A stretch of DNA of 32,059 nt. Source: Deltaproteobacteria bacterium. GTDB lineage: Bacteria; Desulfobacterota; Syntrophia; Syntrophales; UBA5619. The stretch spans positions 1 through 32,059 of the forward strand of contig JAPLJX010000101.1 of the NCBI GenBank assembly GCA_026388375.1. Direction: 5' to 3'. Made by a program: the position numbers and the translations under genes. Positions 1-4,547 of this stretch are shown in pieces. The notes below the pieces were generated by a model. It saw only the letters and a program-made list of their open reading frames with translations. It ran no database searches and was not told the origin of the DNA. Position 1 is the stretch's first letter. Each line of letters starts with the position of its first letter.

Positions 1-1142
1 ATGTCGTCCTCGAAGCCCATCAGGGTCTGGTAGGACCAGACGCCCAGGCCGCCGTCCTTGGGGAGGCAGTAGCCGCCGATCCCCGGACCGGGAAAGATCA
101 TGTTGGAATGGGTGGGGCGGACCTTGATCGCTTTGATCACCTTGATCAGATCCACGCCGTTGCGCTCCGCGAAGAGGCTCCATTCGTTCAGGAAGGCGAG
201 GGTCGTGGCGCGGTAGGAGTTCTCCACGATCTTGCTCGTCTCGCTCTCTATGGGGCGGTCGAGGACGGTCAGCGGGAACTTCTCGACGTTCAGGATCTCG
301 GAGAGAAACTTCACGACTCTTTCCTTCGCCGGCTCGTTGATCCCGCTGCAGACCCGCCAGAAATCGCGGATGGAGGCGACGTACTCCCGGCCGGGCATGA
401 CGCGCTCGTAGGAGTGGGCGAGGAGGGGCTCGGTCGTGATCCCGCGCCCTTCGAAGGCCTTTTTCAGGATCGGGTAGGCGACGTATTCGGTCGTGCCCGG
501 GGGGACGGTCGTCTCGATCAGGACGAGGCAGTGGGGCTGGATCTTTTCGCCCAGGACCTTGAGGCTCTCCTCCAGGGCGGCGATCTCGGCATGGCCCTGG
601 CGGCAGTTGCCGAGGGTCTCCTTGAAGTAGTCGCACTGGACGTCCACGACGATCACGTCGGCGAGGCAGAGGGCCTCGTAGGTGTAGGTGGCGGTGAGGG
701 TCTTCTTCTCCAGGACGCAGCGGGCGATCATCGGGGCGACCTCCGGGTCCTCCGCCTCCACGGGGGCGATGCCTTTATTAAGCAGCGGGATTTTCCAGTA
801 GGAACGGGGGGATGGCCGCTGGACGCCGATGACGAACTTGCTGGGGGTGCCGGGCTGTGGAAAAGGGGGAGGGGAAGGGGGACATGATGCGGCATCATGT
901 CCCCCTTCCCCTCCCCCTTTTCCCTCCTTACGAACGGAGTCGGCAACGATCCCGGCCATGACGGCCCCCACGAAGCCGACGCCCAAGACGACAACGATCT
1001 CATGGCCCTGTGCGCGATGATCGGCTACGAGGGCCTGGAGGCGCAGAATTTCAGCGGCTTCATCCTGCGGGGATGGCAAGGGGAACTGCTCGCCGTTGGG
1101 GGCGGTGGAGTACTGAGTGCTGAGTGCTGAGTTAGAGGTCAT
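1..1142 (-). CDS. Nucleotide-sugar (UDP-glucose/GDP-mannose-type) dehydrogenase, C-terminus beyond window
   Basis: This enzyme family oxidises the C6 hydroxyl of an NDP-sugar to a uronate with NAD, feeding LPS, capsule or EPS. From ATG at 1142, 380 residues are visible before the window edge. The Rossmann glycine motif GVGFVG is at residues 54-59, followed by SKFVIGVQRPS. The segment SETSKIVENSYRATTLAFLNE is typical of the family's central domain, and GGYCLPKD carries the catalytic Cys at about residue 359. An AGGAG Shine-Dalgarno lies 7 nt before the ATG. Two oddities: residues 4-14 are encoded by a heptamer repeat array, and residues about 74-95 by a perfect palindrome inserted between the NAD-binding motif and SKFVIG. 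The substrate cannot be assigned. A deleted second copy lies at 3173-3399. Confidence 0.88.
   Translation of the reverse strand, partial: MTSNSALSTQYSTAPNGEQFPLPSPQDEAAEILRLQALVADHRAQGHEIVVVLGVGFVGAVMAGIVADSVRKEGKGGGEGGHDAASCPPSPPPFPQPGTPSKFVIGVQRPSPRSYWKIPLLNKGIAPVEAEDPEVAPMIARCVLEKKTLTATYTYEALCLADVIVVDVQCDYFKETLGNCRQGHAEIAALEESLKVLGEKIQPHCLVLIETTVPPGTTEYVAYPILKKAFEGRGITTEPLLAHSYERVMPGREYVASIRDFWRVCSGINEPAKERVVKFLSEILNVEKFPLTVLDRPIESETSKIVENSYRATTLAFLNEWSLFAERNGVDLIKVIKAIKVRPTHSNMIFPGPGIGGYCLPKDGGLGVWSYQTLMGFEDD
859..923. repeat. Perfect 65-nt palindrome inside the dehydrogenase gene
   Basis: The left arm 859-890 and right arm 892-923 are exact reverse complements (32 bp) around one central base at 891. 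The arms are G-rich purine and C-rich pyrimidine tracts ending in ACATGATGC/GCATCATGT. The element is translated in frame on the minus strand as a Gly/Glu-rich then Pro/Ser-rich stretch (residues about 74-95), so the host gene stays open. Confidence 0.9.
1110..1131. repeat. Heptamer array (GAGTGCT/GAGTACT type)
   Basis: Tandem 7-nt units of the form TGAGTGC/TGAGTAC repeat about three times. They encode the residues just after the dehydrogenase start on the minus strand. Related arrays occur at 1251-1272, 2390-2405 (degenerate) and 3372-3388. Confidence 0.7.
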
Positions 1143-1879: not shown

Positions 1880-2185
1880 TTAGGGTTCTTTGACTCTGTA
1901 GACATGGGTGGATGTAAAATCCCGTCTTCCATGAATGATCCCGATGACGAATACCTTTTCCGATTTGATCTCGTAGAGAATCCGGTATGAATACGCGAAA
2001 ATTTCCCTTATGTTTTCATCGTCTATCTCCGGCGCCTTCCTGCCGATTCTCGGGTATTCTTCCAGGATGTTCGCTCTATCCACGATATCCTGGACCACTT
2101 TTTTCGCGTAATATTTGGAGTCGGATGCAATGAAGTCGTAAATCGCCCTCAAGTCGGACTTTGCAGGGTCGGCCCAGATTACCAT
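1880..2185 (-). CDS. RelE/ParE family toxin
   Basis: This 101-residue protein has the family pattern: an N-terminal beta strand and helices (MVIWADPAKSDLRAIYDFIA), the central LEEYPRIGRKAPE, then REIFAYSYRILYEI and VIGIIHGRRDF. The YRI.YEI and HGRRDF segments are typical of ParE-like toxins, which act on gyrase or ribosome-bound mRNA depending on subfamily. It overlaps the end of its upstream partner (2179-2358) by 7 nt, so the pair is translationally coupled. The gene ends before repeat copy 1. Target assignment (gyrase or mRNA) is not possible from sequence alone. Confidence 0.88.
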   Translation of the reverse strand: MVIWADPAKSDLRAIYDFIASDSKYYAKKVVQDIVDRANILEEYPRIGRKAPEIDDENIREIFAYSYRILYEIKSEKVFVIGIIHGRRDFTSTHVYRVKEP

Positions 2186-3092: not shown

Positions 3093-3110
3093 ATTCACCT
3101 CTATGGAGCA

Positions 3111-3145
3111 ATGGGGGTCTTGCAGTTTAGCGTTTTGCATGGGGC
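3111..3145. repeat. 38-bp repeat, copy 3
   Basis: This is a shortened, slightly diverged copy: minus-strand ATGCAAAACGCTAAACTGCA, then AGACCCCCAT. It lies just upstream of the TumE partner gene and creates a spurious in-frame ATG. Confidence 0.75.
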
Positions 3146-3172: not shown

Positions 3173-3399
3173 TCAGTTCATCGAGCGCCCCGGCGAAGGC
3201 CGGGAGTTCCGGAACGCCACATGGAGGGAGCGGGTGTCGTTGATGTCTATCGCGAGCGGCGTGATCTTGAAGATGTCGTCCTCGAAGCCCATGAGGGTCT
3301 GGTAGGACCAGACGCCCAGGCCCCCGTCCTTGGGGAGGCAGTAGCCGCCGATCCCCGGGCCGGGGAAGAAATAGTGCTGAGTACTGAGTTAGAGGTCAT
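3173..3399 (-). pseudogene. Deleted second copy of the nucleotide-sugar dehydrogenase
   Basis: The first nine codons after an ATG at 3399 match the start of the intact gene at 1142. They are joined out of frame to the segment FPGPGIGGYCLPKDGGLGVW and onward to FKITPLAIDINDTRSLHVA. About 290 codons are therefore missing. The homology to 1-99 is close (region about 3271-3369). It then continues beyond what the window shows of the intact copy, giving a glimpse of the family's C-terminal domain before frame loss around 3213. The leader is also duplicated (3385-3503). Confidence 0.85.
3372..3388. repeat. Heptamer array at the pseudogene junction
   Basis: TAGTGCTGAGTACTGAG is a two-unit array of the same heptamer as 1110-1131. 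It sits exactly where the 3' part of the dehydrogenase pseudogene is joined to the 5' part, so it marks the deletion junction. Confidence 0.65.
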
Positions 3400-3503
3400 G
3401 GGCGGCTCCTGTTTCCGTGGGGGGGTGCCGGTGCACCGGCACCAATAAGGCTATTGATATTGTTATCTAATTAGCGACGATAAAAAGTTTTGCCTTCCGG
3501 AAA
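3385..3503. repeat. Dehydrogenase leader, copy B of a duplicated segment
   Basis: This is a near-identical copy of 1128-1246, including the perfect 20-bp palindrome, here at 3424-3443. Homology stops at CCTTCCGGAAA in both copies, directly before repeat copy 4. Confidence 0.8.
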
Positions 3504-3505
3504 TC

Positions 3506-3544
3506 TATGGGGTCGGGTCTTTAAATTTAGCGTTTTGCGGGGGG
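3506..3544. repeat. 38-bp repeat, copy 4
   Basis: This copy reads on the minus strand CCCCCCGCAAAACGCTAAA, then TTTAAAGACCCGACCCC and ATAGA. It lies between the dehydrogenase copy B leader and the short reading frame downstream of parB. Confidence 0.85.
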
Positions 3545-3547
3545 ACG

Positions 3548-4455: not shown

Positions 4456-4490
4456 TGTGATCCTCCTTTTTTTCGGGGGTCAGGGTAAAT

Positions 4491-4530
4491 CTATGGGGGC
4501 AGGTCTTGCGATTTAGCGTTTTGCGGGGGG
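4491..4530. repeat. 38-bp repeat, copy 5
   Basis: This is a complete copy: minus-strand CCCCCCGCAAAACGCTAAA, then TCGCAAGACC, then TGCCCCCATAGA. It lies upstream of parB. A partial GGGGTCAGGG echo is at 4476-4485. Confidence 0.85.
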
Positions 4531-4547
4531 AGTCGCGACGGGAAATA

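Follow-up and report, generated by a model that had tools for sequence, protein, structure and literature searches.

The window (the whole stretch of 32,059 nt that was analysed, from the Syntrophales genome denoted G000 below) begins with a minus-strand gene for a nucleotide-sugar dehydrogenase that contains, in frame, a perfect palindrome built around a dispersed repeat. The relevant features, with G001 denoting the genome of the closest relative, are the following.

3..1142, minus strand: nucleotide-sugar (UDPG/GDP-Man family) dehydrogenase gene, which carries the palindrome and runs off the start of the window and of the contig
859..923, no strand assigned: perfect palindrome, 32-bp arms plus 1 nt, encoding residues 74-95 (GKGGGEGGHDAASCPPSPPPFP) of the minus-strand gene
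878..904, no strand assigned: 27-bp core GGGGACATGATGCGGCATCATGTCCCC, a dispersed repeat, here in a perfect version that lacks the usual C/A mismatch in the stem
859..877, no strand assigned: left outer arm, locus-specific, extending 19 nt past the core, the longest extension among 182 distinct copies
905..923, no strand assigned: right outer arm, locus-specific
916..927, no strand assigned: CCTTTTCCCTCC, the reverse complement of the 12-nt flank GGAGGGAAAAGG on the opposite side in G001, a trace of inverted copying
2051..2081 (about), no strand assigned: element-free orthologous site in a RelE-like gene that, in the relative JAURXV, contains the palindrome copy L123 (1026-1052)

The original prediction was of a perfect 65-nt palindrome with 32-bp arms around a single base, an open reading frame and a very stable hairpin in the mRNA, and all three points held. 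A repeat search of the window returned a perfect inverted repeat with two 32-nt arms (859-890 and 892-923) that are 100% complementary around a 1-nt spacer, the minus-strand frame 1142..3 is uninterrupted across it, and folding of the region as RNA gives a hairpin of -69.5 kcal/mol (z = -9.8). By arithmetic, a perfect 32-bp arm is expected by chance about 1e-14 times in 32 kb. An Rfam scan of the window yielded no families at the gathering threshold, and a search of plasmid and phage sequences with a 96-nt stretch produced no match.

The frame 1142..3 matches the Pfam families UDPG_MGDP_dh_N and UDPG_MGDP_dh (the NAD-binding and central domains), and the best solved relative of the encoded protein is the NDP-GalNAcA dehydrogenase 3g79. 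At the insert site, homologues have a loop of 7 residues (DKKTGKP) whereas the window gene has 30; in G001, the same loop is 25 residues long and includes the core and the peptide GGHDAASCPP. The proposal of a clean insertion of about 22 residues was not borne out by the homologue alignment, in which the net gain is 23 residues and host bases are replaced as well as added. In an AlphaFold2 model, residues 75-92 have pLDDT values below 50 and lie between the helix 58-67 and the strand 102-107, and the insert is predicted to form a flexible, unstructured loop that joins helix A to strand 2 in the Rossmann NAD domain.

Outside the insert, the window and G001 genes show 50 synonymous and 8 non-synonymous codon differences (dN 0.0125, dS 0.25; the comparison begins at residue 16, the N-terminal frames being different at a short tandem repeat). 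This substitution pattern indicates purifying selection while both lineages carry a palindrome, and the dehydrogenase appears to stay functional. The tandem repeat, AGTGCTGAG, lies at the start of the dehydrogenase open reading frame (window 1109-1130) and differs in length from that of G001, shifting the N-terminal frame, so that the start codon of the gene is uncertain.

Several additional observations concern this gene and its surroundings. In two other genera (L057 and L076), the same loop contains unrelated inserts before KFVIG, one of which is a TGTCATTCCCGAA repeat with a stem-loop. A second gene copy in this genome, present as a fragment (C413), carries the core at a different place, also in frame (DLIK-REIGGHDAASCPPIS-RPTHSN). 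Within the window, positions 3190-3500 hold a remnant of a second dehydrogenase gene, in which the 3' part is fused to the 5' end and upstream region with the interior deleted; its flanks repeat those of the first gene copy. A different repeat of about 45 nt (GGGGTCAGGTCTTGCAATTTAGCGTTTTGCGGGG) occurs five times in the window in one orientation (1827-1871, 2406-2450, 3101-3145, 3501-3545 and 4487-4531), with eight matches in the whole genome, and its copies separate small open reading frames (RelE-like and others) in a cassette-like arrangement.

The original prediction also called for a search for the arm sequence in this and related genomes. The complete 65-nt sequence was found in the window alone and the outer arms are locus-specific, but the centre of the palindrome recurs widely. 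The true repeat unit is the 27-bp core (GGGGACAYGATGCNGCATCRTGTCCCC), of which, allowing at most one mismatch, there are 40 copies in G000 and 2 to 43 copies in nine of the ten other genomes of the genus. Outside the genus, a single genome from a different genus in the family contained three copies and another family one copy, and a reversed control pattern gave no matches among the 100 genomes searched. All compared genomes are draft MAGs and incomplete. The named carriers of the core comprise Syntrophales/Syntrophaceae MAGs produced by several studies as well as a single MAG labelled Ca. Poribacteria, and the core is also present in ten IMG/VR contigs. The MAG with the Ca. Poribacteria label (JACRIR) has many copies with recurring outer arms (L089, L090, L093 and others), for which transfer and a mislabelled bin are the candidate explanations.

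The core ends in GGGGACA/TGTCCCC and is surrounded by variable flanks. A typical copy contains a single stem mismatch, C opposite A, and the window copy is among the few with T-A at this position. Variants of the inner stem preserve pairing (CCTTGC/GCAAGG, CCATGC/GCATGG, GATGC/GCATC, CTTGC/GCAAG), the core also occurs in pairs and short tandem arrays, and an identical 45-bp copy is present in two families (L002, L037). We did not find this repeat described in the open literature searched. A sister palindrome family, GGGGACAGATTTGAAATCTGTCCCC, was identified as well (L012, L023, L181) and is also read in frame (TGTDLKSVPV), beside a copy of the first family, in L181.

Among 195 distinct copies, 80 are inside open frames of at least 150 codons. 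Because an open frame is by itself no evidence, 20 such frames were scanned with Pfam; five of these (L012, L004, L187, L113 and, weakly, others) matched no family and were left out of the count. In the remainder, the copies are mostly located in linkers or loops. In the NAD-dependent DNA ligase LigA (L158, with L159 at the same codon), the core is found between the HHH_2 and BRCT domains; in MutL (L015, also L136), it separates the two C-terminal domains; in the small chain of carbamoyl-phosphate synthase (L042), it lies between the CPSase and GATase domains; and in a fumarate-reductase-like flavoprotein (L011), it follows the FAD-binding domain and precedes the C-terminal one. Other copies fall between radical-SAM and DUF2344 domains (L111, L152) and between two UPF0261 domains (L117), or in or after domains of an AMP-binding enzyme, alanine racemase, Obg, HemW and a GH57 enzyme. 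In the glycogen debranching enzyme (L160, L143, L053, L006), the core is present at several sites; across the gene L160:1466-3826 (minus strand) and its counterparts in L006, L053 and L143, the palindrome is found in frame at as many as five different sites, which vary between genomes.

The core is translated in all three frames (GHDAASCP, GDTMRHHVP, GTRCGIMSP) and lacks stop codons in at least two of the three, which would allow insertions of suitable length to survive in coding linkers. Where occupied orthologous coding sites could be compared with empty or differently occupied ones, the length differences (3, 6, 15, 18, 21, 24, 27, 42, 51 and 57 nt) are all multiples of 3, apart from one debranching-enzyme comparison that differs by 2 nt and spans a masked run of N; at non-coding sites, the differences are 25, 28, 49 and 4 nt. 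Orthologous sites are often empty, the gene being present without the element. No target duplication was seen at the compared occupied and empty sites, and host bases are replaced.

Complementarity extends at least 5 pairs past the core in 84 of 190 copies. When left flanks were paired with the right flanks of other copies, such extensions averaged 4.2, with a maximum of 11 in 1000 permutations; since this yields 4.2 rather than 84 long extensions, we rejected a fixed element sequence as the full explanation of the outer arms. Some outer arms do recur between copies (GGGAAATAG in L002 and L037; GAAAATC and TTATTC in JACRIR), and the element may therefore bring part of its arm along when it moves.

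Comparison of individual loci reveals where arm sequence can come from. The flanks of the window palindrome and its counterpart in G001 are about 90% identical, whereas the outer arms are blocks of different sequence (GGAAAAGGGGGAGGGGAAG versus GGTGCAATAG), each of them self-complementary. The 12 nt at window 916-927 are the inverted form of a sequence that, in G001, lies outside the palindrome except for its last two bases, and the 10-nt part outside was matched in none of 300 shuffles. A stretch that is inverted in the window and ordinary flank in G001 points to copying of the arm by replication template switching. Similarly, when L025 is set against L046, the left arm, GGGGGCGTTTAC, is the inverted form of the ordinary right flank, with half a core before it (p 0.017), the pattern that a two-step template switch would leave. 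At these two loci, then, the arms include inverted copies of flanking sequence. The arm of L123 matches, in its outermost bases, the sequence flanking the empty site in the window at about 2051-2081. The same test over other long-armed loci was mostly non-significant, with relatives that are few, too diverged or rearranged; we infer template switching as the general cause of arm extension.

The original prediction likened the palindrome to the Rickettsia palindromic elements (RPEs) but noted a different sequence, and this assessment is upheld in that a repeated palindromic element is read in frame in an enzyme gene. According to the accounts consulted, RPEs (Ogata et al. 2000, 2002) are dispersed and tolerated in frame in unrelated protein genes (PMC10969869, PMC6649704). 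The Syntrophales element is likewise palindromic, dispersed in the genome and in frame in unrelated protein genes. However, RPEs are about 100-150 bp long, form their own sequence families and are found in Rickettsia, whereas the core described here is 27 bp (65 bp for the complete palindrome in the window; the two were compared directly by size). Furthermore, RPEs are reported to lose repeat identity over time (PMC6649704), whereas the arms of the present element are locus-specific and appear to grow or gain repeat identity, in an uncultured Syntrophales bacterium.

The GTAG and CGTC superfamilies of REPs comprise palindromes of 20-40 bp that are mostly extragenic, with some inside genes, DNA-repair genes and a DNA ligase among them, and that occur as single copies, dimers and arrays (PMC3733652). 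The Syntrophales core resembles them in being an imperfect palindrome in this size range, in its high copy number (40 in G000) and in its partly intragenic location. It differs by the absence of the GTAG/CGTC tag at the palindrome end and of a RAYT (Y1_Tnp) gene beside any copy examined, and by the perfect outward extension of the arms. Thus, the element works like RPEs and intragenic REPs but is a member of neither group as defined, on account of size in the first case and of the tag and RAYT link in the second. In mitochondria of Nematomorpha, perfect inverted repeats lie within translated genes, and template switching has been proposed (PMC6649704), as it is here; there, however, both arms encode conserved native residues, whereas the window palindrome is a repeat that was added to a dispensable loop. 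A single template-switching event is known to make or repair perfect stems by inverted copying of a nearby strand (PMC8794818, PMC7202029). The window arm, an inverted copy of sequence on the other side in G001, resembles such quasipalindrome correction, but the latter is known mostly at unique loci, and its apparent target here is a dispersed repeat present in many genomes.

Taken together, these observations make it probable that the palindrome is a copy of a REP/RPE-like Syntrophales element that resides in frame in a permissive loop and acquired its perfect form by hairpin-promoted template switching. Under this scenario, a hairpin element with the 27-bp core would insert in frame into a permissive surface loop of the dehydrogenase, and translation would read through it as a disordered loop of about 22 residues. 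The hairpin would then promote replication template switching (snap-back copying), whereby one flank is copied into the other arm, lengthening the palindrome outwards and repairing the stem, which would account for the perfect 65-nt form. The earlier view of the palindrome as a recent insertion or actively maintained is sustained in part: its perfection and long arms look like the product of later inverted copying, but G001 too has a palindrome at this position, and the core may have been inserted before the two lineages diverged. Conceivably, although we hold this broader version to be rather doubtful, the 27-bp mobile palindrome could be self-extending, using hairpin-primed (snap-back) synthesis in place of a dedicated transposase to enter genes and copying host flank into its own arms, which would yield locus-specific perfect arms and could replace host bases with the frame kept.

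The arms of the two lineages could also stem from independent insertions into a hot-spot loop, each with its own arms and no later conversion. The unrelated inserts in L057 and L076 mark this loop as an insertion-tolerant spot, but the junctions are similar in both lineages (after CGTAAGG and before CCTTTTCC) and the window has an inverted copy of the G001-type flank, leaving this history possible without being probable. Recognition and movement of the hairpin by a Y1 tyrosine transposase, with the arms as the element's own sequence, would fit the short imperfect palindrome with its typical stem mismatch, the pairs and tandem arrays, the intragenic copies, which known REPs also have (PMC3733652), and the 45-bp identity between L002 and L037. 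We nevertheless regard mobilization by a RAYT as unlikely: a Y1_Tnp search of 21 incomplete draft genomes found the core within about 1.5 kb of none of the 30 fetched loci, copy number does not track Y1 (G003 has 37 copies and no Y1, G011 no copies and four Y1), the ends are GGGG..CCCC instead of GTAG or CGTC, and the arms are copy-specific.

If the palindromes had arisen independently and been selected within genes for a function as RNA or DNA structures, for instance in mRNA stability or as protein-binding sites, this would explain the paired changes in the inner stem (GATGC/GCATC, CCATGC/GCATGG, CTTGC/GCAAG) and the strength of the hairpin (-69.5 kcal/mol); the scatter of copies over unrelated genes and intergenic sites, the frequency of empty sites in genes that lack the palindrome and the different arms of close relatives make such an origin highly improbable. 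Finally, the exact 65-nt version is present in a single assembly, and short-read assemblers can create false inverted joins. However, G001, an independent MAG, has a palindrome at the same site of the gene, the frame is kept, and MAGs from different projects share the same codons in LigA (L158/L159), an alanine racemase fusion (L142/L122/L054) and MutL (L015/L136). Since independent MAGs agree in the gene positions of core copies, we give an assembly artefact hardly any credence.

In-frame palindromic elements were first described in Rickettsia, and the family centred on the 27-bp core shows that a different and much shorter element does likewise in uncultured anaerobes, where it occupies such core genes as those for LigA, MutL and the glycogen debranching enzyme. 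Because relatives preserve several stages (empty site, core only and long arms), the origin of perfect palindromes becomes testable, and the copies of this Syntrophales element offer a test of how proteins gain loops from non-coding repeats.
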